Assembly (NCBI GenBank): GCA_951799445.1 | Contig: OX637295.1 | Span: 5,394,001 to 5,458,000 of the forward strand | DNA: 64,000 nt | Origin: Pseudisothecium myosuroides | Taxonomy: Eukaryota > Streptophyta > Bryopsida > Hypnales > Lembophyllaceae | Direction of reading: 5' to 3' | In this document: piece after piece, positions 33,063 through 60,747 of the stretch | How positions within the stretch are numbered: the stretch's first letter is position 1 | Layout: every line of letters starts with the position of its first letter | Position numbers and translations under genes: made by a program | Notes under the pieces: generated by a model | The model's database searches: none | What the model was told of the DNA's origin: nothing | Seen by the model: the letters and a program-made list of their open reading frames with translations, nothing else

Positions 33063-33420
33063 CTGGGTTGTCAAAACTGAACGTCCGGGACCAAATCACG
33101 TCCAAAATCCGGACGTTTGGACGGTCGGACGTCGGGACGCAGCGTCCGATCGGACGGGGTGGGTAAAACTGCCGTAAAAAAAAATTACCTCAGGTAATTC
33201 GGACGCCGCGGTCGGCGGTCGGCGGTCGTCTTGACGACCGCATCGGTCGGCTTTCCGCTGTCGGTCTGACGACCGCGTCGGTCAGCGGACGCCGGTCGGT
33301 CGGCTTTCCGCTGTCGGTGAGCTGACCGCGTCGGTCGGCTGCCAGTGTCGGTATTCGGGGTCGGCGTTGAGTCGGTCGGGGCGGTCGGCCGGAGGGGTTC
33401 AGGATTTCAGGCTGTCACTT
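33063..33420 (+). promoter_or_regulatory. Left subterminal region, GGACG and GGTCGG repeats
   Basis: After the terminal repeat come clustered GGACG motifs (33083-33165, including GGACGCAGCGTCC). A GGTCGG-rich block follows at 33205-33410, with CGGTCGGCTTTCCGCTGTCGG twice. It is related to the array upstream of the transposase gene (38690-38850). Likely transposase-binding sites, by analogy with other hAT elements. Confidence 0.7.
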
Positions 33421-33442
33421 TAACAGGGACGGAAAAATTTTT

Positions 33443-33670
33443 AGAACATACATGGTACATCAGCTATTGGCCTATTGCAATTGCAGCCACTTGCGGAGTT
33501 ATTTCATTATTGATGTTCAAGAGGTCATGGGTTCGAAACTTACTTTGTACCTTGTTCTTCATTTTCAATATCCAGCGCTTATAAATAGTTACAGATTTCT
33601 ATTCTACTTCAAGTTGAAATGGGGTACTATAGAGGTATAAGCGCTTTTAGTCAGGCCTCATTGTTTTTTG
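33443..33670 (+). repeat. tRNA-like (SINE-like) repeat, copy 1
   Basis: About 228 bp matching 38904-39130. It contains a pol III B-box-like GGGTTCGAAACT near 33529. It shares ATTGCAATTG.., GGCGCTTATAAATAGTT-type and TTCAAGTTGAAATGGGGTA phrases with copy 2. A clear A-box is not seen, so the SINE assignment is tentative. Homology continues to about 33815. Confidence 0.5.
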
Positions 33671-33817
33671 ACTCATTTTTTCATCTTAATTCAAATATGC
33701 CGAAGTCTTTTTGGGAACTTTTAGGAATTTTGATCTACATCGAATAGAAATCCAACATTTTCGTAGGTCACATTCATTCTTTTTGAATTTTAGCTGTATA
33801 AATTTAATTTACACATA

Positions 33818-34753
33818 TTAACCCCTAAAGTTTCAAGGCCATTTTTTGGCCAAAAAGCACTCAAAACTGCCATTTTTAGGTTTAAGGGTAAAAAAAATTG
33901 AAAATTATTTTTTTTATCACATAACCATAGGATCTTATACTTTACTAGTATGGCAATGCGTGGAAAATATTTCAAAATTTTTGACCACACTAATTGCAAG
34001 ATATCTGCGTTTAAAGTGAAAAAAACAAGTTTTTCAGCACATTGTGGGACGAGATTTTTTGACTTTGAACATTTTTAACTTGAAATTTCTGCACTACAGA
34101 GTTTTGAGCTTGAAATCTATATATTTTATAATTGAGTTGAGAGTCTAGCAAAAAAAATCAAATCAAAAAAACTTAATTTTCATTACTAAAAAAATTGTTA
34201 AGTAGAAATAGGTACGAGATAGAAGGAAAATCTAAAATATTAATATCTTTTACATAGAATTGAAATGAACTAATCCCAACGGTGAGATTGTTCTAGCAAA
34301 AACACTAAATCACGCGGAATTTTTTTTTTTTTTAAATTATAAACATTGCATTCAAAAATGAATCCTACAAGTGTTTTTTTCAGAAAGATCAGAAGATGCT
34401 CTAAGTGCCCGAAAAAATAGATTGTCCATAACTTTCTCATAACAAATCCAAATGGAATGAATCAAAGCTTTAGGGATAGAAAAAAATATAATCTATGGGA
34501 AAAAAATTTAAAATAAAATAAAATGAAATTTGCAACATTTTTTTTGCTGCCCCCTCTCCCTTGTTTTGAGCTTATTTGGGCGTAACTTTTGTTCCCGGGC
34601 ACCAATTGAAAAAAAAATTATATTCCCATGAAGCTTATCAGTTTTCCTATCTTCAAAAAAAGTTTCAAAAAATGAGGACAAAAATTTAGCCTGTAGGTAC
34701 CTGCCCAAAATCCCAAATGTCCGCCAAACGGACAATGGTCCTTTAGGGGTTAA
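33818..34753. mobile_element. Type A TTAA MITE, intact copy (936 bp)
   Basis: Begins TTAACCCCTAAAG and ends CTTTAGGGGTTAA: terminal inverted repeats flanked by TTAA, the piggyBac target. A hairpin, TGTCCG/CGGACA, lies at 34718-34734, 15 bases from the right TTAA. No coding capacity. It shares the TTAACCCCTAAA terminus with the right end of the piggyBac-type element at 28610. Confidence 0.78.
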
Positions 34754-35018
34754 ACTAGGACAACTATGAAGGTGAAACTCTTCACTACATACAATTCTTG
34801 CAATATATTATGCTTCATTGAAGAAAGAAAACATACAATCAAACTTTATTGAATTATAATCCAATAGTTTGAATATCAAACCATCTTAGTGGTGTTTTGT
34901 ACATCACTAAGCAAAGTAGACAACTAGTACCACAATATAATGTTCTACCAACCAATTACCATTACGTGCTCTATGTATGAGCATCAAAACATCTAAGCGA
35001 TTCAAGGCCTTTCAATCT

Positions 35019-38000
35019 CTAAGGCTTATAATCACTATCCCCTTTTACCTCAGCCCCACTACAATCTCCTCTACTTCTCCATTCCACATCTTCATCGGAT
35101 GTCACTTCCATGTCGTCAGATGAAGAATACAAAGTTCTCACTCCTTCGTGCTGTACTTGCCTTGATGTAGATAATCTCCTTGGTTGGTCCTTGCTCTTTT
35201 CCCTTTTTACTCTTAATATGGCGTTCCTCCTATCTTTATGAAGGGAAGGAATTGTTTTCATTTTCCCCTTCGAAGAAGGAAGACATGCATCAAGGGGAGT
35301 TCTACCTACACCTTGTCTCTTGGTTGGGCTCGCTGCAAAAGGCTCCATTTTCCTTTTCCTTTTGGATTTTATAGAGTGTTGGGCATCCAATTTCACTGCT
35401 CCAGCTCCTCCTTGAATAGTTACCTTCATTGCATTCAAAGACAACGTTGTAGGAGCTGACGATTTTGTCGAGCGCCGTGGTGGTGCATGACCAGATTCCC
35501 GAATAAACATTTCTTCCAATGTCTCGTTCATCTCACCATCGGTCGATGGTAAATTGATTGGAGATGAATTGATACGAGGTTGCATTTTTTTGGAAATTCG
35601 GACAAGTCGTCTTCCTACACCTGAACTTCCTGAGCCATCCAATGCTACACTAGGAGTTTCGCGTGCTACAGGAAGAACACCGCTATATCGTGCTCCTCTG
35701 CATTCTTCAATGACTTGTTTCTTATCTTCATCATGGTCCAAAGAAATTGGGCTCTCAGACCCATGTATCAAACCTCCATCAACATTTCTTTGGACTTCGC
35801 TTGGCTTGTCATTTTCATGACTTCGTTCCCCACTCTTCTCATTTGCCAATACCACAATGGATTGAACACTTGCATTGCCCACATTCATTCGAACATTCAA
35901 CTGACATCCTCCTTTGTCAATGTGCTCTTCATTCTCTTGCACTTCTACCATTGTCATGGATGTACACTTCAAACTTTGAAGAACTTCATCCGCTTTTGGA
36001 GTGTCATCATTGACATTCCTTGTCCCATTCGCCTCCGGATCTTCTACGTAAGCCGCTTCCCCTTGCGATACGATATTTTGGCTATTCAAAAATCCGGTCC
36101 CATCGCAAAATCTAGCTAGGGGAATATTATCTTCATTGTCCATATTGATGTCCTCGTCCGATTCATCGAACTCATAAGCGTCTCGATGATTGACCCCAAA
36201 GTCTTCATTACTGCGATTAGGGCTCTGAAGCGGTCCATTGTCATAGTCCTGCATGTCGTCGTTTATGGCATTTTCCTCACTGAATTGTGGCCCATAATCC
36301 TCGTCAACTTCCTCGTCTTCCGAGATAAACCCCTCTGAATCTTCTGACTCCACGTTCTCATGGTACCACTTCTTCTCATCATTTTCTTTTGATGCCGTTA
36401 AAACTTTCAAATTGTTGTACACATACACCAAATCTGCTGCTCTTTGTGGCTTCAACTTGTTCCGAGATTTGTTGTGGACAAATGAATAGTTACTCCAATT
36501 TCGTTCGCATGAAGATGATGATACTGGTTGGGCCAATATCCTCTTTGCAATTGGAGCAATGAGCTTCCCACATGCACCTTCAAAATCCTACCAAGCATGT
36601 GCCGACAACATCTGTTCGCCCGGGTCTAACATGTTATGGAACGGAGGGGTTCTATGTCGAAAGGCTACAAATTCCCTCACGACCATTGCGTAATCTTCGG
36701 GTTTACAAATTTTCATTATAACTCGCTTGCATGCCTCCGTTGCATTTGTGTCGTCAGCTAGTTCTTTATCGTGCAGCAAGTACGGGTTCAGAAGAGCTCC
36801 TGCATAGTGTAGATCTGTCTCCCCCATTTTTTGTCGGTTCACAAATGAGGCCTGCAGTCGTTCTGCTCGATTTGCGGGCAAAGAAAATGGCTCTTTCTCC
36901 AAGTCCATCACATGTTTCTCTAAACCCTTCATAATATGCAATACCTTTCCCATGCATGGTGTCTTCGCATCCAAGTCGCGTAGAGCAAATACAACTGGAC
37001 CCACTACATCTCGGATATTGACACAACGATTCCAGAAATGCGAATCAAGAACAAATTTCTTGACATCTCGAGACTCAGACCGGGGTTGTGTTTTCCGATT
37101 GTCCTTTAGCTTCCGCACATACTCCACCCACTGCGGATCCACCACACTTTGTTGTAATGCTACTTTGACCTTCAACAAACGGTGAATCATAATAAAATTC
37201 GAGGCAAACCTCGTTTTGGCCGGCAACAACAAGCTATATTTCGTCTCGTGCTTTCGAAATATAGCAAGCGGCATCTGCCTACTCTTGAAGAATTTCACAA
37301 TGGCATGGGCTTTCTTTAGATACTCATCAATCCATTTTTCCTTCCCCCAATCTTTCAACAACAAATTCAAGGCATGCACCACGCATCCTTGAGAATAAAT
37401 GTGTGGATACTTACTGGATACCAAATTCCATGCCGCTTGATTTACCGGAGCATTATCAGCGCTGATTTGTACCACATTGGTGGGACCCACGTGCTCTATA
37501 AACTTTTCCAAGACAGATGCCATATACTCTGCGTTTTTTTCCATCCCGCTTGTATCTACCGATCCAACAAATTCCTCTTCGGCAGAAGATACGAGCATGG
37601 CATTTATCAATGGGCGGTTTGTAACCGAGCTCCATCCATCAATAGACAATGTTGCTCCAAACTTCCTTATGCTATCTTCGGTTCTCCTCAGGAGCTTTGC
37701 CTGAAGGTCCGTCTTTGTTTCGTCAAGCAATTTGCATCGTAGATCATGATATGATGGTGGTGTGTACGGCCTATTCCACTCTACCGTGAGTTTTACTGCT
37801 TCTTTAAAGGCTGGATTTCGGGCTACAGCAAATGGTATATTTGCCGCATAAAAAAAATTGGCCCACACTGCATTCAATTTGCGTTTGTGTGCTTCTTCAA
37901 ATCCATCTATTAGCCTGCTCTGTTTGTACGGCCTACTGCTGGATGCCCTGGGAGTTCCACGTTCACCAGATGTTTCAGTAATTCGATTCCTTTCCGAACC

Positions 38001-38348
38001 CACACGAAGAATTTCTTGCGGTACTGTGCATGAATCTTCCTGTGTAGAATGTGATCTGTCCCTGCCATTGGAGAGGTCACTCCCGTCCGTGGGCATGTTG
38101 TTTCTATCCACATTGTCCACACCCGATCTCCGTGGGAATTTCCCTTCACAACGACGAAATAGACCTCGAATCTCTGATGTCAATTTCGGACAAAGGCAAA
38201 CTCCGGTATCACGAGCACCAGATGCGCCTTCATATCCTAGATGGCTCAACATTCGCGCGGGCTTTTTAGCAAACAACAAGTTGCAAGCCTTGCACTGCAC
38301 TTTACTCGGTGGCACGAGGCCATACCAAGGAGAGAAGTCCTTGCTCAT
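35019..38348 (-). pseudogene. hAT transposase (BED, DUF659, dimerisation domain) with one in-frame TAG
   Basis: Cut-and-paste transposase expected to act on the surrounding element in the nucleus. The start chosen is ATG 38348 (MSKDFSPWYG); the open frame reaches upstream but has no earlier ATG. Order: BED-type zinc finger (residues about 15-55, CKAC..HLGY..CLC), a Ser/Arg-rich linker, and a DUF659/RNase H-like core with SIDGWSS and SADNAPVNQAA carrying catalytic Asp, then CVVHALNLLLKD. The hAT C-terminal dimerisation motif SSSSCERNWSNYSFVHNKSRNKL follows the stop. The TAG at 36588-36590 falls on the second Trp of the conserved WW before that motif, and the frame continues unbroken to TAG 35019. 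About 450 residues of acidic then basic (KSKRKRK) tail follow the dimerisation domain, unusual for hAT proteins. Total is 1110 codons, intronless. Inactive unless read through or complemented. Confidence 0.9.
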
Positions 38349-38589: not shown

Positions 38590-38860
38590 CTTGCACTTAT
38601 ACTCCTAAACTGCTGCCGACCGTTGGAGAGGAAATCTGCTCGCTTTCAACAATCAGTCAGTTTCTGCCGTCCGATTTCCGATCAAGGCGGTCGGCGAAGT
38701 CGGGGCGGTCGGCCGTTCGGAGCGGTCGGCCGGAACCGCCGGTCGGGATAGTCGGGGCGGTCGGCCATTAGGGGCGGTCGGGGAAGTCGGGGCGGTCGGC
38801 CAATCGCGGCGGTCGGGGAAGTCAGGGCGGTCGGCGAAGCTGGGCAATTGCCAGGAGGAA
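38590..38860 (-). promoter_or_regulatory. Promoter of the hAT transposase gene
   Basis: On the minus strand a TATA box, GTATAAGTG, lies at 38594-38603, about 246 bp before the ATG. Upstream (38690-38850) is an array of GGGGCGGTCGG and CGGTCGG(C/G) units. The same order (array, TATA, ATG) occurs at the other three genes of the element. Confidence 0.6.
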
Positions 38861-38903
38861 TTCGGCGTCCACCCATCACTTTAATATGAAGGATAACGGA
38901 TCC

Positions 38904-39248: not shown

Positions 39249-40219
39249 TTAACCTTTAAAGGTTTTTTACTATGTTTTCACCATAATTGTTTGAAAAATG
39301 CCATCTCCAGTACAAGTAGCAAATTCTGGTAAAAAAAATTCCACCATACATATAACCGGAGTATCTCATAGTAAATTATTCAAACAAATTCTGGAAAGAC
39401 TTTTTCAAATTTTCACCATGTACATTGCAAGATAATTAGCTTCTGAATCGACAAACACGCTTTATTGGGCCCTGCGAAAATCAAGGCACCTACACTTCAC
39501 AAAGTCACATTATATAATAAAATGACAAAACCGATTGTAAATCTTTCGGTTCTTTTTCCTAAAGAAGTTGGCCACGTGCTTGAAATTTTTTAAGTTCATT
39601 TGAAATTGTACAATTGTTAGAAAAAAAATAGTAGGTAGAAAGAAGTGGAGAATGAATCAAATCATTAAATTGTTACGAATTTTATTATAGAATTGGAAAG
39701 TGCCAATTCAAACGGTTGTAGTGTTAAAATAAATAATTTGCATCCAATGTTTTCTTTTCTTCCAACAATATTGAAATTTAAATTAAATAAATGACTTCAA
39801 AGCTTTTTTTACAGTAGGGATTCTATAACTACCTTCAAACTAAGAATCCTTATAAATTTTGATTCACTCATTTGAAATAAATGATTGAAGCTTCCCGCGT
39901 ATATATAAATCTATAGAGCCAATTTCAAATTTTTGATTTAATAAAAAGGGATTTTAGAAGAACCTTTTTTTACTTTCCGGGTTGTCCAAACATCAAAGAA
40001 AACTACATAGTACATATCATGCAATAACTTTTTCACTTTGTTACCAAATGTTATGAAAATTGTTGGGCCTTACCGCCTTACAAATATTCCTTGAGTCCTT
40101 GGATACATCATACATCTAGTGTGAAAATTTCAAAGGAAAAAAAATAAAATTTCATTAACAGTGAGTTGCCCAAAATCACTATGTTTCCAGAAAACCATGT
40201 CTTGTACTTCAGGGATTCA
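39249..40219. mobile_element. Type B TTAA MITE (copy 1)
   Basis: The left end TTAACCTTTAAAGG is clear; the right end CTTCAGGGATTCA is degenerate, with TTAA mutated to TTCA. It shares with the other type B copies the phrases TTTTCACC, CACTTCACAAAGTCACAT, TTGGCCACGTGCTT, AATTGTACAA, CTTCCCGCGTATATA and ATGCAATAACTTTTT. Non-coding. Confidence 0.7.
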
Positions 40220-41738: not shown

Positions 41739-44700
41739 TCAGCACCTGCCACTACCTTCTCCCGAAACAGGAGATGTCCCTTCTCCAGCCAAGAGTCTTC
41801 TAGCAGCTTGTCGAGTTTGGCGTTGTTGACTTACTCGAACAATGCGCCCTCCGGATTTCACTTCTTCGTCAACCTTGGAAAACAACCGCTTTGATTCCGG
41901 AGAGTGGTCATCCTCATCTTCAACCCTACGTTTCCTCTTCCTCGCGGGAGTCAAATCTACTTCGCCGGCGCTCAGAGCTCTCAAAGCAACATCCACTCGA
42001 TCTACCATCGCGTTCACTACCACATCATCGTCTTCGGATTGCAAATTGTTCGGTCGATCTCCTTGCAACAAGAATGCCCTCCATTGAATTATAATGTCGG
42101 ACATCCTCCTGTCGAATGCCCCTGCCACATCTACTAATGCATGCTCTGTACTTGTTGCTGCATCTACTTGGACAAGAGCGCGAACTTTTGCAGCCTCTTC
42201 CAACTTGGACAAGAAGAAGGCCCTGCCAATCAAAGTGTGGTTATACGCGCCGTACTGCTCCTTAAACTCTTTCGGACCCTCCACCTCCACCCAATTGCCA
42301 TCTGGCCCTTTTTTCACCTCCTTTTCAGGAAATCGGAAGAATTTCTGGTGCTGCAAGCTCCAATGCCCCCCCATGTTGCGACAAAATAATTCACGACCCT
42401 CTTCATTTTCAATAACTCGTGCTCGCAACTCCACCTCTCTGTTCATAGTCATCCACATGAGATCATCTACCGGTTCTTGGGACTCCTCGTAAAGTCCATG
42501 CTTTCGCTCATTTGCATCCCATGTCAGAGGTTTTCCCCAATGCAAGTAATTCGAAAACTTGTATGGTCCTTGGTCCAATGGAAGGTTCCAACGATTGTAT
42601 TCGTGGCCAGGGGGCATCACTTCCAAAATCCCAAGCATTTCATAGAACCTAGGACTCAAAGGAGAGCGACACTCCGCACAAACTGAACGAATGAGCGATG
42701 CTCTAACCATGCATGTTACATGGAAAGTGTGACGACATTGGCCCATAGTTAGAGCTCCTTCAGGACCAAAGGGGCCTTGACAAACACTACAATGACCCTC
42801 CAAGATGCCCGGAGCCGGATCACAAGCGTGCACTACAACCTTCTCATGCTTCTTGATGTGTGCTGAAAGTGTATTGTAAGGCACCCATCCTTCCTCTGCT
42901 TCGAAGGTCCAATTCACATTCTTAATTGGTGATTCCTTCTTCGTGTGATTCAAGCGCTCAAACATGACATCCATGTCTCCCCAACATGTAATTTCGGTAT
43001 ACCCCCTAATTCCTTGATGGAACGCATTTTGGAACCTCTTTAAAGAGGTCTCAATGGCAGTACAATCTTCAGCCGACTTCATTGCCAATTTTTGAAGCCC
43101 TTGCATTGCTCGGGATACCACGGAGGGCCTGTCTTGGAGAATCTGCATCCATGCCAACCACCGATACTCCAATCCGTACCCGGGCATATAGTGACGCAAG
43201 TCCATTGTCTGTTTCATTTGTTCCAAGTCCGACTGAAGAAGGGCTTTTTCTCGAATTGTTTCATTCAATTTTTGTTTCAGCTCTTCAAACTCCTGACCTT
43301 CAGTTTGCATGGAAGCATCCATCAGTGTCGGGGTAGGGTTATTGGTGGAGGGTCGTACCTGCACTTCCCATCTATGGGTTTCCTCCTCGTCATCCAAATG
43401 CACAACTTCGGTCTCCTGCACTGCTTGAACTTTATCGAAAGGAAGAGAGAGTTTATCCTCACTTTCTTGACTTGGCTCCACAGACGGGGGTTTCACATTG
43501 TCTGTGATGGGTACCCCTTCATGCATGCGATTGAATTTAATGAGTTCAGTTTCTAATCTTTCATTCTCATCCACACGGACAAGCATTAATGAATTCCTGC
43601 GCTTTTCTGCCTTCACAAGCTTTTTCTCCATCTGCACTTGTCGGGCCAAGTCCTTGCACTTTGCCTTCAACTTCATGTTTTCTGACTCCAAGAGAAGCAC
43701 CTCGCTTGCTTTGCCTACATTGTCGTCGAGAAGTGGTACCATGGACTTTGTGAAATCCAAGAAAGACAAGGCACCAGTCATCAATTCTGGAGAGACTCTA
43801 GAAAATTCTTGCGCCATCTCGATAATCCTTGGCGTAATTTGAGCTACAAGTCGAGCTAAAGAAGTTAGCAAGAAAGCAGTTTCCACAACCGATGGCTTGA
43901 TAGCTCCCCATAAATGCACTCCAGAGCTGCTGGCCTCGTGGTTGGGGTCATTTTTCTGAAGCTCTTCTTGATGCTTCTTCCACCGATTGTCGCAGTCTAG
44001 CAGGAATTCCACTTCCTTGGTAGTTTGCATTAGACCAAGGTTCTCCACTGGGTCATCACCTGGTGGTGACAAATGTGGATGCTCGCTTTCAGGCTCTATC
44101 CCATCAATAAAAAGGTTCATGGCATCGTCCTGGGGTTCTTTTCCGTGTCTTCGTGTCGGTTGTACTTCCATTTCTGGACTTAGGATTGGACTTGACGGTA
44201 AAGACGAAGGCGGAAGAGGTGTGTACATCAAGGGCTGTAGAGCATTGCTCTCTAGAAGACTATCAATTCTAGCATTGGCCCTTGCAACTTCTTTGTCGCC
44301 AACCTCCTTTCGTGGCAAAATAGGTGCCCCATTTCCTATCGCGGGGCCGCGTTTGTTTGGAGCAGTCTCTCGACCTAACACAGTACTCAAAATCGGTTTG
44401 GAAGTCAAACACATTTGAGGAGTCAGAAACACCAGTCTCTTTGCGCCTCCCGAAGCGGTATTGCTCACTTTCACTGGGGGAGTTGGTAAGACTTCTTCTA
44501 TTGTACCTCCCGCGAGGGCATTGCCAACTTCCGCAAGGGCATGCAATGAACCCAATTGCGCTGCATTACTTGTCCCCTCCCCAACCTCCGTTGTATGCGT
44601 TGTAGTAATTTGTAATGCTTCTTTGGGTTTTGCCTGAGGCTTGGGGGGACAATGGGGAATATCTTTCTGGTTTCTTCCAATCAGAAGTGGACACTGTGCT

Positions 44701-45134: not shown

Positions 45135-45329
45135 GATTGGCAATTTGAAATTGCCTTCACCTCCAATTCAAGAAATACTCCGCAAGTGACGTCCAATGTA
45201 TATGCACAAGTAAAAATGTCAAAAAGTTCCCGTATCAAAAGCTCAATGACTTCAACTCTCCACCATGTAGGAGCAACTGGCGCATAAAGCAACAGAGATC
45301 AGCCGACTTGGCGCCGAAGGGGAGTTGAA

Positions 45330-45770
45330 GTGAGGAGGTCCGAGGAGGCCGTCCGCTCTTATAGCCGACCGACCCCAGACCTAAGCCGCGTCCGCCGCCG
45401 GACCAGCCCCGAACCTCGCGGACCTGCCCCGGATCGACGCGTTCCGCCTCCGCGGCGATCGCCGAAGCCGCAGTCCGCCCCGAACCTCTGCCGACCGCTC
45501 ACCGACCGACCTCAGCGACCGCTCCAAACTGACCGCCCGCCCGAACCAACATACGAAGCCATCCGAACCAAACACGGCCGTTTTAGGGTAGGCCGACCGC
45601 TTTGGACGGCCGTTTTAGGCTAGGCTGACCGCTTCGGACGGCCGTTTCAGGGGCGACCGACCGCTTCGGACGGCCGTTTCAGGGTACGCCGACCGATTCG
45701 GACGGCCGTTTTAAGTTACGCCGACCGATTCGGACGGCCGACCTGGACGACCGCCAGGGTTGACGAAAAT
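45330..45770 (-). promoter_or_regulatory. Promoter and array of the RING gene
   Basis: On the minus strand CTATAAGAG lies at 45356-45364, 222 bp before the ATG. An initiator-like CTCACTTC (plant YTCANTYY consensus) follows about 30 bp downstream at 45327-45334. Upstream to about 45770 is an array of CGACCG and GGACGGCCGTTT units; GACGGCCGTTT(T/C)AG.G.A.GCCGACCG recurs about five times at 45570-45740 with a spacing near 40 bp. Confidence 0.65.
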
Positions 45771-46920: not shown

Positions 46921-46924
46921 CAAG

Positions 46925-49931: not shown

Positions 49932-50845
49932 GTGCCAAGCCACCGACCGATTTCCCGACCTCTGTCTAGACCGCTCGGACGACCGCTCTAAAAGCCGCTC
50001 TAAAAGCCGACCGAAATCGTGACCGACCGAAAATCCCACTGATCGACCGAGAAGCCGACCGAAAATCCCACTGATCGACCGAGAAGCCGACCGAAAAGCT
50101 GACCAACCGAAATGCCGACCGAAAACCGGAGACCGAAAACCTGACCGACCGAAAACCCGACCGAAAACCCGACCGACCGAAATCCCGACCGAAAACCTGA
50201 CCGACCGAAAACCCGACCGAGAACCCGACCGATAATCGGGCCGACCGAAAACCGGGCCGACCGAAAACTTGACCGAAATCTCGGCCGAAAACCTGACCGA
50301 CCGAAAACCCGACCGAGAACCCGACCGATAACCCGACCGAAAACCTGACCGACCGAAAACCCAACCGAAAACCCGACCGACCGAAATCCCGACCGAAAAC
50401 CTGACCGACCGAAAACCAGACCGAGAACCCGACCGATAACCGGGCCGACCGAAAACCCGACCGATATCCTGGCCGAAAACGTGACCGACCGAAAACCCGA
50501 CCGAAAACGCGACCGATAACCGGACCGACCGAAAACCCGACCGAAATCCCGGCCGAGAACCCGACCGACCGAAAACCCGACCGAAAACCCGACCGATAAC
50601 CGGACCGACCGAAAACCCGACCGAATAACTGACCGAAAAACTGACCGACCGAAAACCCGACCGAACGATCGGACGACCGACTCCGTCCACGCCGTCCGCC
50701 TTTTCCGTCCGCTCCTTCGTCGGTGGCCGTGCGATCAGCAGACCGACAGATGAGAACCGCAGGATCTTGGGGTCGGTCGGCCTGCCGTCCGATTCGGACG
50801 TACGCGACCGCCTCGGCTGCTCCGCCGACCGAACGCATAAATAGC
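49932..50845 (+). promoter_or_regulatory. Promoter array of the Gly/Tyr-rich protein gene
   Basis: About 690 bp (49970-50660) of CGACCGAAAACC and CGACCGA units. A mixed GC-rich segment follows, then a TATA-like CATAAATAG at 50836-50844, 284 bp before the ATG, with CTCATTTC (initiator-like) at 50856. The array is the reverse complement of the right subterminal array at 60110-60640. Open frames rich in GFRSVGF across the array exist in several frames and are not genes. Confidence 0.65.
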
Positions 50846-51127: not shown

Positions 51128-52234
51128 ATGTCACACGGAACACCAAGGGGCAAAGGCAAGAAGGCCAAAAGGAGAATATCGCAGGACATAAATTGGGATG
51201 ATTGGGCTAACTCATTTTGTGTAGCTGAGCCTGGATGGGATGATGAGGAGGAGAAATTGTGGACCTCCACAATGTGCAAAAAGTACGTGAAAATGACACA
51301 CGTCTCCAAACTTTGGTCACGTGAACGCACGCTTTATCAACATCCCTGTTGGGAAGGTCAAATCAGCACATGTAAGAGCGAGCACTTTGTGCAACGGTAC
51401 AAGGAAATCCAAAAAGCAGCAGGTTTACCAAACAACAAACCAAATATAATGTTGTATGGTGTCATGGCCATGATTTGGGCAGAGATTGTACTCCACAAAG
51501 AAGTGGATTGGCGCACTATTCCGGGAAAAGATGTGCACAAATTGAATCGCAGCGCCCACGTGATTGATTCGAACTGGGAAGGTCCGAGTGATTGTATGTA
51601 TGAGTGGTCTAATCGAGGATTTGGCCATCTTCCCACAGTTGTGTTGCCAGATGCAGAGGATGAACTCGATGATGAAGATGATGATGCTCTTGCACCCGTA
51701 ACATTTGGAGGAAGACACGAACGCCAAGAAGAACGAGACAACATACAATACGAACAAGAAATGCATGAGGCAATGCGAAGGAGCCTAGAAGATCATGGTT
51801 GACAGCCTGGGCACGATAGGTCATACGGACATGACCGTGGTGCATATGGCCCACCACAAGGCGGAAGTCATTCTCAATATGCTAATGATCCCCGAGGTGA
51901 ATCTCAAGGCAGAGAAAGAACCCATGGAACCGTACAGTATGGTGGTTCCAACGAAGGAGGCTCACAATACTACGGTGGAACCACTGGAGGTGGGTCATAT
52001 GAACATCACGGGAGCTCCTATTATAGTCGTCCAAACGAAGATCGCTCTGACCACAACGTTTCAGCTCTTCCACCAACTTTTGGAGGTCCTGGCTACGGCA
52101 ATTATGGACAAACAGGTGCATCAAGTGGACGTGGAGACATCTATGGTGGAGGTCCATATCTTGGGATTTATGGGTCTGCTTCTATTGGGCCAAGTCAGAG
52201 AGATGACACCGATTCAGATTCCGAGGAGGAATAG
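51128..52234 (+). pseudogene. Paralogous-domain protein with Gly/Tyr/Ser-rich tail; one in-frame TGA
   Basis: Transposon cargo of unknown function. The first segment (51128-51802, 224 residues) has a basic N-terminus, then a domain at residues 37-135 that aligns with the RING protein: GWDDEE..LWTSTMCKKYVKMTHVSKLW and VDWRTIP. Cys50, His58, His72, Cys74 and Cys82 suggest possible metal binding. After TGA (51800-51802) the same frame continues to TAG at 52232-52234. It encodes about 143 residues dominated by Gly, Tyr, Ser, Gln and Arg, ending in DSDSEEE, which resembles low-complexity, prion-like or RNA-binding protein tails. The continuing composition argues that the TGA is a recent change in a 367-residue gene. 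Alternatively, the short form is the product. The ATG is the first in frame and lies 284 bp from the TATA box. Confidence 0.8.
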
Positions 52235-53832: not shown

Positions 53833-55618
53833 TTCCTAAACCCGCAAGGCCGAAGGCCTTATTTTTGGCAACAAATCTTACAATTGTGAATTGCCATTTC
53901 TATAGGAAAAAAGAGAACAATTAGAAAATTAATTTTTGGGCACATGTAGCCATAGGATCTTATACCCAACTAGTATAAGAATTTGTGGAGCATTAGACAT
54001 AATTTTAGACCACACATATTGCAAGATATTTGTGTTTAGCCTTTAAAGATTTTTGACTAAGTTTGTACCAAAACTACTGTAGCACTATTGGATTCAGTAT
54101 AAGTACCAAATTTTATAAACTTTTTAATGTTGGACACATATAACCGTAGGATCTCGTAGTAAACTGGTTAGAAAAGATGCGGGAAAACTTGTAGAATTTT
54201 TCACCATCTAGATTGTAAGATAATAGTGTTTCAATCCGCAAAAGTGCTTCTTTGGTCCCTCCGGAAAACGGGGCAGCTGCACTTCACAAGGTCACATTCA
54301 TTTTAAAAAATGACGAAAATTGGGGTAACTCTTTGGATTCATTCTTGAAGGCAAGTTCGGTCCATGCTTGACAATTTTCAGATCATTTACAATTGTACAA
54401 CACATAGGAAAAAAATACAAAATAGAAAAAAATAGAGGATGATTGAAAACACTAAATTGTTAGGAATTTGATGAAGGAATTGAAAAATGCCAGTCCCAAT
54501 GGTTGTGATGTTGAAATAAAGAATCTTGAAACCCAATATATATTTTTTTTCCCAGAAATACTGAAATTTGAATTAAACAAATGACTTTGATTTTTTTTTG
54601 GGAGTAAGGATTGAAAAAATACCGTCAAACTAAAGATCCGCTTGAGTTTTGGCTTGGTGATCGGAATGGATTAATGGAATGATTCAAAGCTTCTTTTGTT
54701 TATACAAATCTGAAGAACCAATTTTAAATTTTAATTTTTGAAGCAAGTGATTTTTGAAGACGTTTTCTTGCTGCCTGAGCTGCCTAGAGATAAAAAAAAA
54801 ATACTTATCATGCAAAACCTTTCTGACCTTGTGGTTAGATGTTATGAAATTATTGGGCCTAATCCGCCTGAAAGCTACTCGGAGAGCACATCGTGTGTGA
54901 AAATTTGAAATAATGAAAATAAAAATTCTATGCATAATAAACTATCCAAAATTGATATCTTGCCCAAAAATAGTATTTGGGCCTATAGGCGTTAAAGTGG
55001 AGAAAAGAAGTTCTTAAAGACATTATGGAAAGCAGTGTTTTGATTTTGAAGATTTCGCACTTGAAATTTTTGCAATAGTGAGTTGTGAGCTTTGAATCTG
55101 GAAGTTGGAGAATTGTGTTGGTAGTTTAGCCGAGAGGAAATTAAAAAAAAATTTAATTGTCAAAATTTTTTATTATTCATATATGGAAGTGCCAAAGTGG
55201 ATACAATGAATCATTAAATTTTAATATCTTTTGCATTAAATAAGACTAGGGTAATTCAATGGTAAGATTATTGTAGCCCAAAAAAATGAACCACACAGAC
55301 CTGTTTCTGTGAAAAAAAAAATTGAAGAAATTGCATTCATCAATGAAATTCTACAAGTTCGTTTTCTCAAGTGCCTTGAAAATAAGATTGTGTAAAACTA
55401 TTTGTAACCAATTGAAATGGAATGAATGAAAGATTTCTAGGTAGACAACAGTAGCACGAATGGGAAAAAAATCCACTCAAAAAAACTTTCTTTTGGGCTG
55501 CCCTCAGCCCTCCTCTTCCCTATTTTCAGCTTATTTCAGCAGAACTTTGGATTTCCGGAATGTAGGCACGGTTGCGAAAAAAATTCTATTTCCATCTTTC
55601 TACGAACTTAAGAAAACC
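53833..55618. mobile_element. Type A TTAA MITE (copy 3), interrupted by type B
   Basis: The left part (53833-54035) and right part (54996-55618) match consecutive portions of the intact type A copy, for example CCATAGGATCTTATAC, CACA.ATTGCAAGATAT and GGCTGCCC.C. The right end is lost where the kinase promoter array begins. Confidence 0.65.
54036..54995. mobile_element. Type B TTAA MITE (copy 3), nested in type A
   Basis: Left TTAGCCTTTAAAG, right CCTATAGGCGTTAA, with a hairpin GCCCAAA/TTTGGGC at 54962-54982. The interrupted sequence GATATTTGTGTTTA//TTAAAGTGG corresponds to GATATCTGCGTTTAAAGTG at 34000-34018 in the intact type A copy, so the empty site and the TTAA target are both visible. 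Confidence 0.8.
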
Positions 55619-55812
55619 AGCGACTCCCCGCCGACCGCCCAGTCTGCCGACCGCGAGCCGAACCCTAATCTGTCACCGCCGTCGGCGGATGGAGTGGTCG
55701 GGCCGTCCGATGCGGCGGGGCACTCGATGGAGCGGTCGGGCCGTCCGATTCGGCGGTCGGGGCGACCGCAAACTATAAGAGGGGCGGACGGCCAGACCGC
55801 TCCCTCACTTTT
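55619..55812 (+). promoter_or_regulatory. Promoter of the kinase-like gene
   Basis: GC-rich block with CCGACCGCC, GGTCGGGCCGTCCGAT (twice) and GGCGGTCGGGGCGACC. Then CTATAAGAG at 55773-55781, 252 bp before the ATG, and initiator-like CTCACTTT at 55804-55811, about 30 bp downstream. It is shorter than the other arrays. Confidence 0.65.
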
Positions 55813-56031: not shown

Positions 56032-57516
56032 ATGCCAAGGGCAAAGAAGGCTGCAAAGAGGCGAGACGGGGTGCAATCAGGGCAACCAAGTATCAAAGAG
56101 TTGAAGGAAATTCCCTCTGATGCATGCAAGAACTTTCTCATTGAATTCACCTTGAAATTCTTTGAGTCTGAAACCACTCTTTCCTTGGACAATAAATACA
56201 TCAGATACCAAGAGGAGTGCCCAAAGAAATTCATGGATGATATGTCACAGAAGATGATGGAAGCCCTTCACGTTCCTGAATGGCATCATGAAATGGAGAA
56301 GAAGGGCTTTGTGAAATTCCTTCACAACAGGGCGTATGATGCGTTGTGGAATTCCAAAGTGGTTCTCGCAAAATATGTGAAGCAACACCGCGCCGATGAT
56401 GAAGCCTTTCAAGAAGTTATCCTCAGAGCTGATTTATTCACGAAGCGGTGCAAGCCATTTGCTAACACGCGCAATAGAAGGAAATCAATGACATGGTGGA
56501 ATAGCGATGATGGAAAGGATGAATTGTACCATGGCAGGAGACATCTCATTGCACTTCCAGATACGGCACAAGTGATTGCCCAAGATGATAAAATTATAAA
56601 GGGTGGATATGCTACTATTCAGAGGGTCCGAATTGAAGGATGTGCTCCTATAGTACCGTTTTGGGAGTTTGCAGCAAAGAGATCTCACCAACACAATAAA
56701 AGGCCTGAGTTAGCGAAGTTGGAACACCTGAACGAATCAATGGCAGTGAGGATTGCGCACCCTGGAGTAATACGTTTTTTTGCAGTGCATGCAACAAGGA
56801 ATGAAGGGTACTCCTATTGGTGGAATGGTGGGACACTGCGAAATATGCTGAACATGGATAATGATTATCCAGACAACATACAGGTTCGGTTGATGTATGA
56901 CAATCCATCGGAAGCAGAGGTGATTAACGCTTTCCGCCTCGCTCGATTCAGGAAGAAGCGAACGGAACTTACATGGGCGTTCGTGCACATTATGAATGCA
57001 GTGCATGTTGCTGGACATCTCCACAATGATATTTCTCCAGACAACATCATGTTTCACTTTCCCGACGATGAGTCACGTGTGTATGTTGGAATTTGTGATT
57101 GGGGCTTAACTAGCTTAGCTAGTGAACGTCCTAAATCCTTGTACACATTCACATCTGCCATTCAGAGGGATCAAACTTTGACACAGAGGTGGTGGTTGGA
57201 TCCCAGTAGCGCCTACTTGCACAAAATTGATGCGAATGAGGACGTCATTCCAAGGTTATCATGTGAAACGAAAGCATATGCGGTTGCTAAAATAGCTCAG
57301 AGGATGAACAGGCAGTGCATGTCCGAGGCTTACACTGCATTGCAGAAGGAAACTCCACAATGCAGCAGATTCGAACACCACACATTGGGACTGGCGTTTC
57401 ACGAGTACTTACAACGGGTCATCAGAAAAGAAAGCACTTTGGCTCACGTCGTGAATCGATTCTGCACTACTTTCAAGTTTCCTATGCTCGATGAATATTT
57501 CCGGCAATCATACTAA
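56032..57516 (+). CDS. Protein-kinase-like protein, transposon cargo
   Basis: Intact single-exon gene of 494 residues. An N-terminal region (1-180) of unknown type begins with a basic stretch (PRAKKAAKRR). A protein-kinase-like domain follows: a degenerate glycine loop IIKGGYATI (about 188-196), an ATP-anchoring Lys in FAAKRS (Lys216), AHPGVIRFFAVH, the catalytic loop HNDISPDN (Asp333, Asn338) and DWG (Asp356) in place of DFG. Lys, both Asp and Asn are present, so catalysis is possible; the weak glycine loop and DWG make it atypical. Possible roles, by inference, are signalling to host pathways or phosphorylation of element proteins. It reads toward the right end, in the same direction as the 51128 gene. 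Close relatives are unknown to me. Confidence 0.85.
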   Translation: MPRAKKAAKRRDGVQSGQPSIKELKEIPSDACKNFLIEFTLKFFESETTLSLDNKYIRYQEECPKKFMDDMSQKMMEALHVPEWHHEMEKKGFVKFLHNRAYDALWNSKVVLAKYVKQHRADDEAFQEVILRADLFTKRCKPFANTRNRRKSMTWWNSDDGKDELYHGRRHLIALPDTAQVIAQDDKIIKGGYATIQRVRIEGCAPIVPFWEFAAKRSHQHNKRPELAKLEHLNESMAVRIAHPGVIRFFAVHATRNEGYSYWWNGGTLRNMLNMDNDYPDNIQVRLMYDNPSEAEVINAFRLARFRKKRTELTWAFVHIMNAVHVAGHLHNDISPDNIMFHFPDDESRVYVGICDWGLTSLASERPKSLYTFTSAIQRDQTLTQRWWLDPSSAYLHKIDANEDVIPRLSCETKAYAVAKIAQRMNRQCMSEAYTALQKETPQCSRFEHHTLGLAFHEYLQRVIRKESTLAHVVNRFCTTFKFPMLDEYFRQSY

Positions 57517-58140
57517 ATATCAGTAGGTTACCAACTTACCGTAATCTATAGAGGTACATAAGTAGGGGACTAGGGGATGAATTTAGATATGAGGATTTAT
57601 CGTGTGTAGAGGACGTAGTATGTGTGCACATATAATCTATACCAATGTATGTGGAATTGGATATACAATTTGATTTTCTGTGTGTTTTTCAAATTGTAAT
57701 GAATACAAATGTTTACTATACAAATTGTATGCTTTGTGTGGATGAGAAGTGCAGTACTCCTTGTTAATGGATATTGGATTGTTGCGGTTGCATGACAAAT
57801 AGAATGATATATGACATTTGGATATTTTGAACTTAGGCGTCAAGGGACACATGTGTAGGGTGAAAGGAATATTAGAAAAATTTCAAGATCCGAAAGGCCA
57901 GAAAGTGAAGTCTAAATTAGGAAGGAAATTTTAATTCATATCATTCAAAAGATTCATAAGGATTGAAGGTTTTTACCATTTCATGGATACAAATCCCCTA
58001 CCCACAAAAAAATAGGGTGTGAAAAGAGAGGTAGAAAACGAAAGCAATGATAGTACATAATTGAAGATGAGAAGGTGTCAATGTAAAAAAAAAAATTTAC
58101 GCTGCGAAAAGTTTGTTTTTGAAAAATTGAGGGTGTGAGC
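57517..58140. other. 3' flank of the kinase-like gene
   Basis: AT-rich. TATA-rich strings at about 57630 and 57800 may include the 3' UTR and polyadenylation region. Nothing else supported. Confidence 0.4.
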
Positions 58141-59095
58141 TTAACCCCTAAAGGTTGTTGAGTATATATTCACCCAAAACGTTCCGAAACTGCCATTTCC
58201 AAAAAATAACCCAAATTTTAGAAAGAAAATATTTTAGGACACATGTAATCATAGGATCTTGTAGTGAATTGGTTTAAGAAGATGTAGAAAAATTTTCAGA
58301 ATTGTCCACCATGTATATTGCAGGGTAACAACATTTGAATCGACAGAAATGTTTTTTAGGTCCGGGCCAAAACCGGACAGCTGCATTTCACAAGGTCTCA
58401 TTTGTATCGGAAAGTATCAATAATGGTGGTTTCATTTGGATTCATTTTCAAGGTGAAGCTGGCTCTGTGCTTGAAAATTTCCAAAACATTAGGAATTGTA
58501 CAACATATAGAAAAAAAATAGCAAACAGAAAGAAGTAGTGAATGATTCAAACCACTAAATTGTTAAGAATTTAATTATATAATTGGAAAATGCCAATCCC
58601 AATGGTTATAATGTTGTAGTAATGTATCTACATTCTTTTTTTTCTTTTTTTCAAAAGATATTGAAAATTAAATTGAATAAAGGATTTTAAAGTTTATTTC
58701 TGAGCAAGGAATCCAGAATTGCCCGCAAACTAGATCACCGCGTACTTCTGATCTCATAAATGAAAAAAAAAAAAATTCAAACCTAAACTTGCATATATAG
58801 ATCTAGAGAACTAGTTTGAAGTTTTATGCTTTTTTTAAAGCAATTTTTAAGAATTTTTGAGCTGCCCAACAAGTATTAAAAATCACATATCAATATATCA
58901 TACAATAACTTTTTAATCTCTAGGTTAGAAGTTATGAAGAAAAGTTGGACCTTAAAGCTACTCCTCCTGAAAATGCCTTGTGAAAATTTGAACTAAAAAA
59001 AATAAAAACTCTGCTTGTAGTAAGTTGCCCAAAAATGCTATGTTCTCCAAAGACCAAAATGCATGTTCAATGCCTTGTGGATTAAATTGAGACTT
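58141..59095. mobile_element. Type B TTAA MITE (copy 4)
   Basis: Left TTAACCCCTAAAGG, right CCTTGTGGATTAA. It shares with other type B copies the phrases GAAACTGCCATTTCC, ACATGTAATCATAGGATCTTGTAGT, TGCATTTCACAAGGTC and CAATAACTTTTTAA. Confidence 0.72.
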
Positions 59096-59729
59096 TGATA
59101 GAAGTCGTAGTATCTTACCCAAAATAAGATGGTGTGAAAATAACTTTAAAAAAATGTACAACAACCATATTGAGACAATGTTATTTTCCCCCCTCCTTGA
59201 AAGTAATGTGTAAAAAGAGGAACTTCTTTTTACACCGATTGAAGTGTCTTTCCACAAAAGTAGGGTGTGATAATAAACCAAAAATGCCACACCTATTAAA
59301 ATTTCTTATTTTTGATTGTTCCAAATTGATGATCTTCTCTTCTGGTAATCCAAACTTCTCTATTGTTCTTGTTTGGTTACTTCAACGCAATGGTAGTCGC
59401 ATTTTCATAGCAAGCAGTTGCATGACATCGTGGGATGACCTTTGTTCCTAATAACTGTTATTTCTTTCAATGAAAATCAGCACTCTTCAAAATATCCTTA
59501 ATTCATTTCAATCATTTACATCACACCAAGCAATTCTTACCATAGCCAAAACTTCTCAAGGACCCTTACGCAAAATTCTATTTCCACTCAAACACCCGCG
59601 TACGTTCATTGTTGAGTTCTAGTGACCTAGTCCCATTACTCCTATAACATTCAGTAGCTTGTAAACCAAAAAAAAAAGGAAAAAAAAAAATTCTGTACAA
59701 TTTGTATGACAAGATTATTTGGCTTTGTC

Positions 59730-59960
59730 ACTTTGTGCCTTCTAAGCTTATAAGTTTTTAACTATTGATATTCATTTCTTAAATTTTTTCTCTTAAATAT
59801 TTGAGTGAAAAATTTAGGAAACAAATTTAGGAAAATATAACTAAATTTTCATTCATTATAAAATTGGTAAGTGGAACTAGGTTTCAGAATCCCGGAAAAA
59901 AAAAATCATTAATACATTTATTATGAAAGTGGAACTTGGAACACAACTCCCTTTGGTTCG
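59730..59960. mobile_element. Type A MITE fragment
   Basis: ATTTTCATTCATTATAAAATTGGTAAGTGGAACTAGG and nearby phrases match part of the type A copies. The rest of 59096-60100 shows no gene. Confidence 0.35.
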
Positions 59961-60104
59961 GTGTATTGTATCCTTTTTATCAATGGAAATTGTTCATGTG
60001 TTTTAAAAAAAAAAAAAAAACAGAACACAACAATCCCAAAGCTCACATTATTTTAACAACCGATTTGAAGCATGTTTATTAATTTCTTCGGAGAACTTGT
60101 AAAA

Positions 60105-60747
60105 ACGGGTCGGGATTGGGGTCAGGTCAGGTTTTCAGTCGGACTTTCGGACGGGTTATCGGTCGGGTTGACGGTCGGGTTTTCAGTCGGACTTTCGGAC
60201 GGGTTATCGGTCGGGTTGACGGTCGGGTTTTCGGTCGTGATTTCGGATGGTCAGGTTTTCGGTCGGGGTTTCGGTCGGTCGGTCCGGTTTTCGGTCCGGT
60301 TTTCAGTCGAGAATTCGGTCGGTCTGGTTTTCGGTCAGGTTTTCGGTCGAGAATTTGGTCGGTCTGGTTTTCGGTCGTCGGTCGCATTTTCGGTCGGTCC
60401 GGTTTTTGGACGGGTTTTCGGTCGGGTTTTCGGACGGTCCGGTTCTCGGGCGGTCGGGTTTTTGGTCGCTCGGGTTTTCGGTCGGTCCGGTTATCGGTCG
60501 GGTTTTCGGTCGGTTTTTCGGTCGGTTTGTCGGTCGGGTTCTCTCGGTCGTTTTTTCGGTCGGTTTCTCTCGGTCGGGTTTTCGGTCGGGTTTACGGTCG
60601 GGTTTTCGGTCGGGTTTTCGGTCGCGGAATTTACCATGTAGGTAAAAAACATAAAAAGTGAATGTCACAGGACGTTGGGGGGGCAGCGTCCCCGGACTTT
60701 GGACGTCCGTCCGAACGTCCGAACGTCCGAACGTCCTGACAACCCAG
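60105..60747 (-). promoter_or_regulatory. Right subterminal region, GGTCGGGTTTTCGGTCG array and GGACGT motifs
   Basis: About 530 bp (60110-60640) of GGTCGGGTTTTC units, the reverse complement of the array upstream of the 51128 gene. Then 60664-60735 with GGACGTTGG, CAGCGTCC, GGACGTCCGTCC and CGAACGTC three times, then the terminal repeat. It mirrors the GGACG motifs next to the left end. Open frames (such as 60072-60641) follow from the repeat. Confidence 0.7.

Follow-up and report, generated by a model that had tools for sequence, protein, structure and literature searches.

A 27.7-kb segment of the window, i.e., the 64,000-nucleotide stretch of DNA analysed here, raises the question of whether a single hAT transposon can carry four genes and, if so, whether these are passengers or genes of the element itself. 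hAT elements usually measure a few kb and contain one gene. As had been claimed in the original prediction, a terminal inverted repeat (TIR) and a perfect 8-bp target-site duplication (TSD) are present at both ends of the segment. The element runs from 33063 to 60747, with exact 11-bp TIRs (CTGGGTTGTCA) at 33063–33073 on the plus strand (from the sequence, motif counts and genome comparison) and at 60737–60747 on the minus strand (from the sequence and motif counts), and the duplication GAAGATAC could be read directly from the sequence at 33055–33062 and 60748–60755. Allowing up to one mismatch, the 11-mer occurred in the window only at these two ends, a count that is not significant by itself (mean of 1.04 in shuffled sequences, with two or more in 26 of 100 shuffles). 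Genome-wide, the exact 11-mer occurred 178 times, compared with 62 for a reversed control, and the 100 of these 178 matches that were listed included at least nine facing pairs 27.0–27.9 kb apart. TSDs were read for the window and, among the same 100 matches, for pairs that face each other and have two exact TIRs, leaving aside pairs at C2:36104087 and C5:1571116 and one-ended copies. Ten of the 12 pairs in the window subfamily (subfamily 1, window included) had TSDs matching at 8/8 positions, one at 6/8 and one at 1/8, and the perfect duplications differed from element to element; when the left flank of one element was compared with the right flank of another as a control (90 comparisons), agreement never exceeded 5/8. 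It is therefore the genome-wide excess of the 11-mer, the facing pairs and the TSDs, rather than the count in the window, that place the TIR pair above chance. Both the 8-bp TSD and the short TIRs are features of hAT elements. Two shorter derivatives were also seen, one with an 8/8 TSD and one without such a full match.

Four other full-length copies (D, E, I and G) aligned with the window copy end to end, with 0.78–0.87% substitutions, and each had its own perfect TSD; pairwise substitutions among all five ranged from 0.63 to 0.88%. These alignments bear on the explanation that the locus is an artefact of assembly or annotation, in which the ends of separate short elements face each other by chance. 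Such an impression could arise from the GC-rich repeats at the ends, and the 11-mer pair in the window carries no significance of its own, but copies aligning over the entire length rule out two unrelated short elements placed face to face and make an artefact extremely unlikely. The genome contains dozens of further copies that have these ends and these four genes, as the original prediction required, and 42 scored copies of the window-subfamily kinase were 86–100% identical. The window region is almost certainly one copy of a multi-copy, recently multiplied lineage of giant four-gene hAT elements. Judged from near-identical copies with distinct TSDs, which are indirect signs of mobility, the four-gene hAT appears to be a mobile unit.

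The transposase gene (35019–38348, minus strand; from open reading frames, Pfam matches and copy alignment) encodes 1109 residues in intact copies. An own hAT transposase had been predicted and is indeed present, but the two reading frames seen in the window are not a two-gene transposase: they are one 1109-residue gene split by a stop at codon 587 (36588–36590). In an intact copy, DUF659 (3.3e-35) and Dimer_Tnp_hAT (1.3e-9) both scored over the cut-off and were followed by a tail of about 460 residues without a Pfam match, and the protein combines the dimerisation domain with the RNase H-like core of hAT transposases. The core motifs S[IT]DGW, [AS]DN[AV]PVN and CERNWS, which we take to be the catalytic motifs, were visible in all three subfamilies of the element described below. 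Among 53 relatives found, 44 were of at least 900 residues, and their length suggests that these long relatives, scored over residues 1–700, carry the same tail. Hosts were named for four relatives (two from Rhododendron, one from Ranunculus and one from the moss Physcomitrium), and these proteins were only 630–732 residues long, in contrast to the 1109 residues here.

The second gene on this strand (41739–45134; from the open reading frame, Pfam and alignment) encodes a RING-H2 protein of 1131 residues from the ATG, or 1134 from a TTG at 45143. The C3H2C3 zinc ligands of a RING-H2 domain (C785, C788, C803, H805, H808, C811, C822 and C825) were invariant in 13 aligned sequences including that of the window, and H808 is replaced by tyrosine in genome copy s3a. 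Pfam scores of the window protein fell below the cut-off (zf-RING_11, 26.4 versus 27), PF13639 was precomputed in 9 of 12 relatives, and the structure prediction (pLDDT of 47) was unreadable. Its N-terminal domain is shared with the small paralogous-domain protein, encoded at 51128–52234 on the plus strand (from the open reading frame and copy comparison), which has 368 residues in four other copies and a stop at codon 225 (51800–51802) in the window. The overlapping reading frames in the window might have indicated an intron in this gene, which the 368-residue frame elsewhere rules out. Each of the four genes is a single uninterrupted reading frame in at least one copy, so that the description of them as intronless holds; that of full-length reading frames applies to other copies, but not to the transposase and small genes of the window with their in-frame stops. 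Because of these stops, any movement of the window copy would have to be in trans.

The fourth gene (56032–57516, plus strand; from the open reading frame, alignment and structure comparison) is open and encodes a protein kinase-like protein of 494 residues. K216, E235, D333, N338 and D356 were invariant in 26 sequences, i.e., the window protein and 25 of 47 relatives, mostly full-length (the nearly full-length P0015 was left out), and D356 is asparagine in genome copy s3a. All 50 matches listed by Foldseek were kinases (best E value 1.2e-6; TM-score up to 0.58 on the target, at an rmsd of 9–15 Å), and the bilobal fold is thus found together with the K/E/D/N/D residues expected of a kinase. 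The Pkinase score of the window protein was 23.2, under the cut-off of 31.7, and a relative from Ceratodon passed PK_Tyr_Ser-Thr (23.2 versus 23.1). The only named organisms among the 47 relatives were one moss and one "Bacilli" bin. The protein from this metagenome-assembled genome (P0004), 62% like the window kinase, most likely represents plant contamination. Searches of viral contigs and prokaryote genomes, with two short peptide patterns each, confirmed no relative, and a viral or prokaryotic origin of the kinase was rejected on this ground.

Whether the four genes travel together, a check proposed with the original prediction, was answered by their linkage. The gene order was fixed, with the transposase and RING-H2 genes on one strand and the small and kinase genes on the other. 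In subfamily 1 (42 kinase, 40 RING, 40 transposase and 43 small-gene matches) the small gene adjoined all 42 kinases, the transposase was divergent from 40 of 42, and RING and transposase lay in order beside 38 of 42, or 40 of 42 when RING fragments were counted. No scored RING or transposase match, and only one small gene, stood apart from a kinase. Distance limits of 60, 45 and 25 kb were our own choice, and the counts exclude two subfamily-2 RING matches, short end fragments of small genes already counted, and small-gene matches at about 31–35% identity, which represent RING N-terminal domains. The absence of stand-alone host copies applies to the candidates scored (kinase 87/322, transposase 72/364, RING 41/668, small gene 150/471). 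Among the matches listed, a scored transposase lay within 60 kb of 3 of 17 subfamily-2 and 10 of 28 subfamily-3 kinases; these counts are lower bounds, because only part of the candidates were scored.

Two older subfamilies, 2 and 3, contributed three complete elements (one and two, respectively) of 18–23 kb with the same four genes in the same order, at 33–74% protein identity to the window subfamily. TSDs matched at 7/8 positions in the subfamily-2 element and at 8/8 in both subfamily-3 elements. Short TIRs of the form C[TAC]G[GA]GTTG were found across the lineage: the 11-bp repeat in subfamily 1, CCGGGTTG/CAGGGTTG in subfamily 2 and CAGRGTTG in subfamily 3. A second subfamily-2 locus (s2b; 30 kb examined) had the small and kinase genes only. 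Values of dN/dS were obtained by the Nei-Gojobori method on tblastn-matched codons, skipping stop codons. Between the window subfamily and subfamilies 2 and 3 they were 0.12–0.42, with dS to subfamily 3 saturated (1.8–2.95, one undefined); for copy E against the subfamily-2 element they were 0.29 for the transposase, 0.30 for RING, 0.37 for the small protein and 0.21 for the kinase. Because they are conserved in three subfamilies with low dN/dS, the four genes look like conserved core genes of the element rather than passengers. The original term "cargo" was correct as to the gene set, but is too weak for genes conserved in two further subfamilies. Within subfamilies dN/dS was raised, to 0.85 (transposase), 0.98 (small), 0.41 (RING) and 0.36 (kinase) when non-independent pairs were pooled in subfamily 1, and to 0.65 (transposase), 0.75 (RING), 0.60 (small) and 0.26 (kinase) in subfamily 3, from which we infer that many copies are probably decaying. 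Stops were present in 20 of 40 transposase, 24 of 40 RING and 11 of 42 kinase matches of subfamily 1.

The four genes had also been predicted to possess their own promoters; the sequence offers GC-rich motif arrays upstream of them, which are candidates for such a role. By motif counts, arrays of CGGTCGG lie upstream of the transposase gene (38686–38835), of the RING gene (45135–45740, with a 32-bp tandem array), of the small gene (49983–50668, the largest CGGTCGG/CCGACCG tandem array) and of the kinase gene (55688–55768). They recur in the left subterminal region (33074–33352, with four GGACGT in the first 150 bp) and in the right one (60125–60736, with tandem CGTCCGAA and six GGACGT in the last 150 bp). 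The window element contains 94 CGGTCGG motifs, of which 64 fall in the 1.3-kb upstream zones of the four genes and 30 in the terminal 700 bp, these zones having been set after viewing five motifs and their clusters; the rest of the element has none, and the 36.3 kb of flank has one. Motifs were assigned to these zones in four elements (the window copy, s2a, s3a and s3b), the gene limits of the last three being set by hand. In subfamily 3, the arrays consist of CCGTCCG in place of CGGTCGG. Copy alignment also revealed four AT-rich repeats of about 930 bp (39250–40190, 48000–48950, 54035–55000 and 58141–59050).

These features suggest a model in which the hAT transposase, with its unusually long C-terminal tail, would cut and paste the entire 18–28 kb unit, and the remaining three proteins would form an element-encoded control system. 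The N-terminal domain shared by the small and RING proteins would recognise the GC-rich arrays found at the two ends and ahead of each gene, coordinating expression with end recognition; the targets of the RING ligase and kinase might then be either bound host silencing factors or the tail of the transposase. That the locus belongs to a giant multi-gene hAT lineage with its own regulators, taken as a whole, is likely. The specific role of the accessory proteins in array-binding control or anti-silencing, which is read from their anatomy, is put forward tentatively.

Gene capture would explain the gene set differently: an ordinary hAT gained three host genes once, and these remained passengers without a role in the element. 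Transposons of several classes do capture genes or gene fragments, according to PMC6431247, and both the kinase fold and the RING-H2 domain are frequent in host proteins. However, genes without a role should decay or disappear, whereas all four genes were kept in three subfamilies that differ to the point of 33–59% identity, with dN/dS between them far below 1; no scored RING or transposase match of subfamily 1, and a single small gene, stood apart from a kinase; and the genes bear element-specific motif arrays. We therefore regard capture as unlikely, and simple capture of host-gene fragments, from which the locus had already been distinguished in the original prediction, is rejected, the genes being complete and conserved in other copies.

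It is quite possible, perhaps only a little short of an even chance, that the three accessory proteins (kinase, RING and small) work in transposition proper and not in anti-silencing, by affecting the stability of the transposase, timing in the cell cycle or the choice of repair. The tail of about 460 residues past the dimerisation domain could be a target for phosphorylation or ubiquitylation, and the arrays at the ends resemble subterminal binding sites for the transposase, such as those of Ac/Ds. However, arrays also lie upstream of all four genes, and this points to control of expression as well. A cassette for horizontal transfer or meiotic drive, with kinase and RING acting as a poison/antidote or drive system, would fit two features: several conserved accessory genes lie on one giant mobile unit, which is reminiscent of Starships, and the copies of the element are young and numerous. 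Against this, no toxin-like gene was recognised in the element, the named kinase relatives come from one moss and the "Bacilli" bin alone, and none was confirmed by the two peptide patterns each in viral contigs or prokaryote genomes; this explanation is very improbable.

Returning to the hAT lineage with its own regulators, the element shares with DUF659-type hATs, presumably the plant Ac/Tip100-like group, the 8-bp TSD, short TIRs, DUF659 and C-terminal dimerisation domain, but differs in its 18–28 kb and in having four genes rather than one. By anatomy, the best reading is that the nearest system is VANDAL/VANC. VANDAL elements of Arabidopsis (MULEs) carry VANA, VANB and VANC, and PMC5735166 describes their motif arrays as dense, subfamily-specific, non-coding and often tandem, changing between related copies. 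Both are plant DNA transposons with a transposase, accessory genes and motif arrays, and the moss arrays are likewise dense, non-coding and element-specific (94 motifs versus 1 in the flank, with a shift in subfamily 3). However, the transposase here is of the unrelated hAT superfamily rather than Mutator-type, one motif is common to the arrays at the two ends and those ahead of all four genes, and the RING, small and kinase proteins had no Pfam match to the VANC domains (DUF1985/DUF287). ToxhAT of fungal wheat pathogens (14.3 kb; PMC6737239) is also large and bounded by TIRs, and it combines a hAT-like transposase with several further genes. According to that paper, it has 74-bp TIRs, no TSD anywhere, a composite origin from at least two transposons and mostly fragments elsewhere, whereas the moss element has a conserved gene set and many full copies with 8-bp TSDs. 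In Chondrus crispus, enlarged En/Spm families (16–20 kb, 4–5 ORFs), mentioned in PMC6431247, are likewise multi-ORF cut-and-paste transposons of a photosynthetic eukaryote; they belong to the CACTA superfamily rather than hAT, and the likeness is one of size and ORF number. We found no description of an element like the present one in the open-access literature. Fungal Starships and Mavericks/Polintons are giant multi-gene DNA elements too, the former using a tyrosine recombinase and the latter an integrase along with viral genes; no tyrosine recombinase, integrase or viral domain was among the Pfam matches of the element ORFs tested.

The fall in efficiency with length is thought to hold cut-and-paste transposons to a small size (PMC6431247), yet here a hAT lineage of 18–28 kb has multiplied recently and, across deeply diverged subfamilies, has retained the same four genes. 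Whether a plant DNA transposon brings its own kinase and ubiquitin ligase to bear on silencing or on its transposase thereby becomes testable, and the lineage offers a natural large-capacity hAT. Mosses may thus harbour an ancient giant hAT lineage with a complete self-regulatory system acting via shared arrays, an independently evolved hAT counterpart of VANC anti-silencing; we consider this possible but on balance doubtful, as we do its component set of two proteins with a putative array-binding domain (one an E3 ligase) and a dedicated kinase. If true, a VANC-like hAT system would operate at a size where cut-and-paste transposition is thought inefficient. One example in Ceratodon suggests that such genes are entered in moss genome annotations as hypothetical genes of the host. 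In other genomes, relatives of the RING protein and transposase occurred on contigs of identical size (17,649 and 7,321), as did relatives of the kinase and transposase (27,639), and these identical sizes suggest that the genes are linked there as well.

The window element (33063-60747) is a four-gene hAT unit, bounded by terminal inverted repeats (TIRs) and an 8-bp target-site duplication (TSD), which is young, present in many copies, and accompanied by older relatives of equal build. Both the TIR and the perfect TSD of the original prediction proved exact in the sequence: the left TIR, CTGGGTTGTCA, lies at 33063-33073, its reverse complement at 60737-60747, and an identical GAAGATAC on both flanks. 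Allowing up to one mismatch, no further copy of the 11-mer occurs in the window; shuffled windows contained a mean of 1.04, with two or more in 26 of 100, so that the pair in the window alone proves little. Genome-wide (387.9 Mb in 222 contigs), the exact 11-mer gave 178 matches, compared with 62 for a reversed-sequence control, and there were at least nine facing pairs 27.0-27.9 kb apart among the first 100 matches listed. For 12 facing pairs, one of them the window element, both ends were inspected. The TSD was perfect in ten, every one different, with 6/8 and 1/8 positions matching in the other two, whereas left and right flanks taken from different elements matched at no more than 5/8 (90 comparisons). 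One of the perfect pairs had ends 54.6 kb apart, a spacing presumably due to later insertions. All testable defining features of a hAT element, i.e., TSD, TIR and transposase domains, were found.

There are further copies with the same ends, and the alignments of four of them (D, E, I and G) with the window copy span its entire length. Substitutions among these five amount to only 0.63%-0.88%, about three-quarters of them transitions, which points to a recent expansion of this family (subfamily 1). The ends also appear to mobilize shorter derivatives, because a 7.9-kb TIR-to-TIR unit at C2:44824459-44832399, with none of the scored gene matches inside, has a perfect TSD (ACACAAAG). A 16.7-kb TIR-to-TIR unit near it (C2:44791225-44807946) keeps the small gene and has a TSD that does not match; both are likely deletion derivatives.

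In subfamily 1 the four genes almost always travel together. Among 87 scored kinase matches, 42 were 86%-100% identical to the window kinase (subfamily 1). The small gene lay within 25 kb of all 42; 38 had RING and transposase genes within 45 kb in the order of the window element, and 40 had a divergent transposase within 60 kb. None of the scored subfamily-1 RING (n = 40) or transposase (n = 40) matches was left unassigned to a kinase, and the one extra small gene is that of the 16.7-kb unit. At two kinases without a scored RING match (C5:1607646 and C4:16114442), the small-gene search placed a RING N-terminal domain within the element (C5:1596560 and C4:16103334). Hence 40 of the 42 have all four genes, at least in part; the remaining two (C4:28455701 and C2:36129110) have no scored transposase beside them. 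Of the 45 kinases in subfamilies 2 and 3, 39 have the small gene beside them. With the best 72 of 364 transposase candidates scored, at least 3 of 17 subfamily-2 kinases and at least 10 of 28 in subfamily 3 have a scored transposase at a distance of up to 60 kb.

The predicted ORFs are real and, in intact copies, each gene is a single exon. A single ORF of 1109 aa encodes the transposase in D and E, and the small protein has 368 aa in D, E, I and G; the RING protein has 1131 aa in the window copy and in G, and the kinase has 494 aa in the window copy, D, E and I. The claim of intronless genes therefore stands, but that of full-length genes stands for the family and not for the window copy, which has in-frame stops at transposase codon 587 and small-gene codon 225 and is, judged from these stops, non-autonomous. 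Stops occur in 20/40 transposase, 24/40 RING and 11/42 kinase matches of subfamily 1.

The encoded proteins are of the kinds expected. In the transposase, split in the window over adjoining ORFs, DUF659 and the hAT dimerization region score above the Pfam cut-off, followed by about 460 residues without a match. This tail was compared within this genome, and relatives outside it were judged by size: 44 of 53 have at least 900 aa, and the four with named hosts, including Physcomitrium, 630-732 aa. Pfam matches of the window RING and kinase fall below the cut-off. All eight C3H2C3 ligands of the RING-H2 protein are invariant in 13 sequences, as are kinase residues K216, E235, HND(333) with N338, and D356 in 26 (the window and 25 of 47 relatives); in s3a, a decayed subfamily-3 copy on C2, one ligand is lost and residue 356 is N. 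The 50 Foldseek matches shown for the kinase model (pLDDT 76.9) were all protein kinases. The best E-value was 1.2e-6; TM-scores were modest, reaching 0.58 on the target, at an rmsd of 9-15 Å. The family is divergent, because the nearest solved structures by sequence, MAP kinases, match at just 8e-4. The small protein is about one-third identical to the RING N-terminal domain over about 120 residues (E about 1e-15 to 2e-18), bearing out the proposed paralogous domain, for which we found no Pfam family.

Among named kinase relatives, the closest found (48%) was a kinase-like protein from the moss Ceratodon purpureus. P0004, with 62% identity to the kinase, is filed under a Bacilli metagenome-assembled genome and is probably plant contamination of that bin; searches with two short peptide patterns each confirmed no kinase relatives in viral contigs or prokaryote genomes. 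Named-host transposase relatives are weaker (27%-36%; Rhododendron, Ranunculus and the moss Physcomitrium patens), and metagenome-derived protein sets contain RING and kinase relatives. A moss is the most likely host of the element. Taking matching sizes as the same contigs, RING P0048 and transposase P0062 share a contig of 17,649, RING P0057 and transposase P0078 one of 7,321, and kinase P0031 and transposase P0065 one of 27,639, which suggests linkage in other species, down to 33%-47% identity.

Within this genome, a 21,594-bp subfamily-2 element on C11 (TSD 7/8) and two subfamily-3 elements on C2 (18,142 and 22,860 bp; TSD 8/8 in both) contain the four genes in the order and orientation of the window element. 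Protein identity to the window is 53%-74% (transposase), 58%-59% (RING), 67% (small) and 68% (kinase) for the C11 element, and 33%-59% for the subfamily-3 elements. At C8:1636000-1665999, a subfamily-2 locus, only the small and kinase genes are found in the 30 kb covered, adjoining a tandem array (L041-L042; C8:1636000-1655700) of nearly 20 kb, built of repeats about 170 bp long. Its unit matches a stretch within the C11 element, so the array looks like a satellite that arose from it. C11 (16.9 Mb, the smallest of six contigs whose size was seen) is enriched in older copies, often with stops, holding 10 of 13 transposase matches of 60%-89% identity and 12 of 45 subfamily-2/3 kinases; it is possibly a sex chromosome or one with little recombination.

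When copy E was compared with the C11 element, dN/dS was 0.29 (transposase), 0.30 (RING), 0.37 (small) and 0.21 (kinase); between E and the C8 locus it was 0.42 (small) and 0.26 (kinase), and to subfamily 3 0.12-0.23 where defined, with dS saturated. Pooled values within subfamily 1, from few and non-independent changes, were 0.85, 0.41, 0.98 and 0.36 for transposase, RING, small and kinase genes, and those between the two subfamily-3 elements 0.65, 0.75, 0.60 and 0.26. Being low between subfamilies and higher within, these ratios argue for transposase-like constraint on all four genes over the old divergence and for decay of recent copies. That the accessory genes are passengers without a role we consider very improbable.

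The window element contains 94 copies of CGGTCGG (1.1 expected from a first-order Markov model, maximum of 50 runs 5), 64 within 1.3 kb upstream of the four genes and 30 in the terminal 700 bp, with none in coding sequence or other zones; these zones were chosen after inspecting five motifs. The 36.3 kb flanking it in the window contain one. In the C11 element there are 37, of which 29 lie upstream and 8 are terminal. The subfamily-3 elements have one or two, but 34 and 28 copies of CCGTCCG, one per element in coding sequence and the others upstream or terminal. GGACGT is concentrated in the terminal 150 bp (window 10/16, D 8/13, E 10/16, s3b on C2 10/16). Arrays common to the ends and every gene, with a motif that switches between subfamilies, resemble the VANC-bound arrays of VANDAL elements, as the available text describes them (PMC5735166). 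The encoded transposase would move the four-gene unit, and the three accessory proteins might exert control by binding the arrays, a model of control that we consider less likely than not. Direct action of these proteins in transposition is compatible with such control, and has somewhat less than an even chance of being correct.

The assignment as a hAT variant is well supported, and function is directly testable. ToxhAT, the nearest large hAT unit we found described, is a 14.3-kb composite, elsewhere mostly fragments, and, in the available text, lacks the TSDs that the window element has (PMC6737239). A review of giant eukaryotic transposons, whose main text as available does not contain "hAT", cites red algal En/Spm elements of 16-20 kb (PMC6431247). 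Targeted searches of open-licence papers turned up no comparable hAT from mosses or other plants; an earlier entry, in Repbase or in a subscription paper, is possible.

Beyond the element, window 23603-26710 (-) holds an ORF with a piggyBac-type DDE_Tnp_1_7 domain (1.2e-66) and adjoining ORFs. Inside the element, each long gap between or beside the genes contains one of four AT-rich repeats (39250-40190, 48000-48950, 54035-55000 and 58141-59050), which are roughly 930 bp long and 68%-73% alike, with matches in both orientations at the subfamily-3 locus; they may be a spacer repeat, an old insertion or a regulatory unit.
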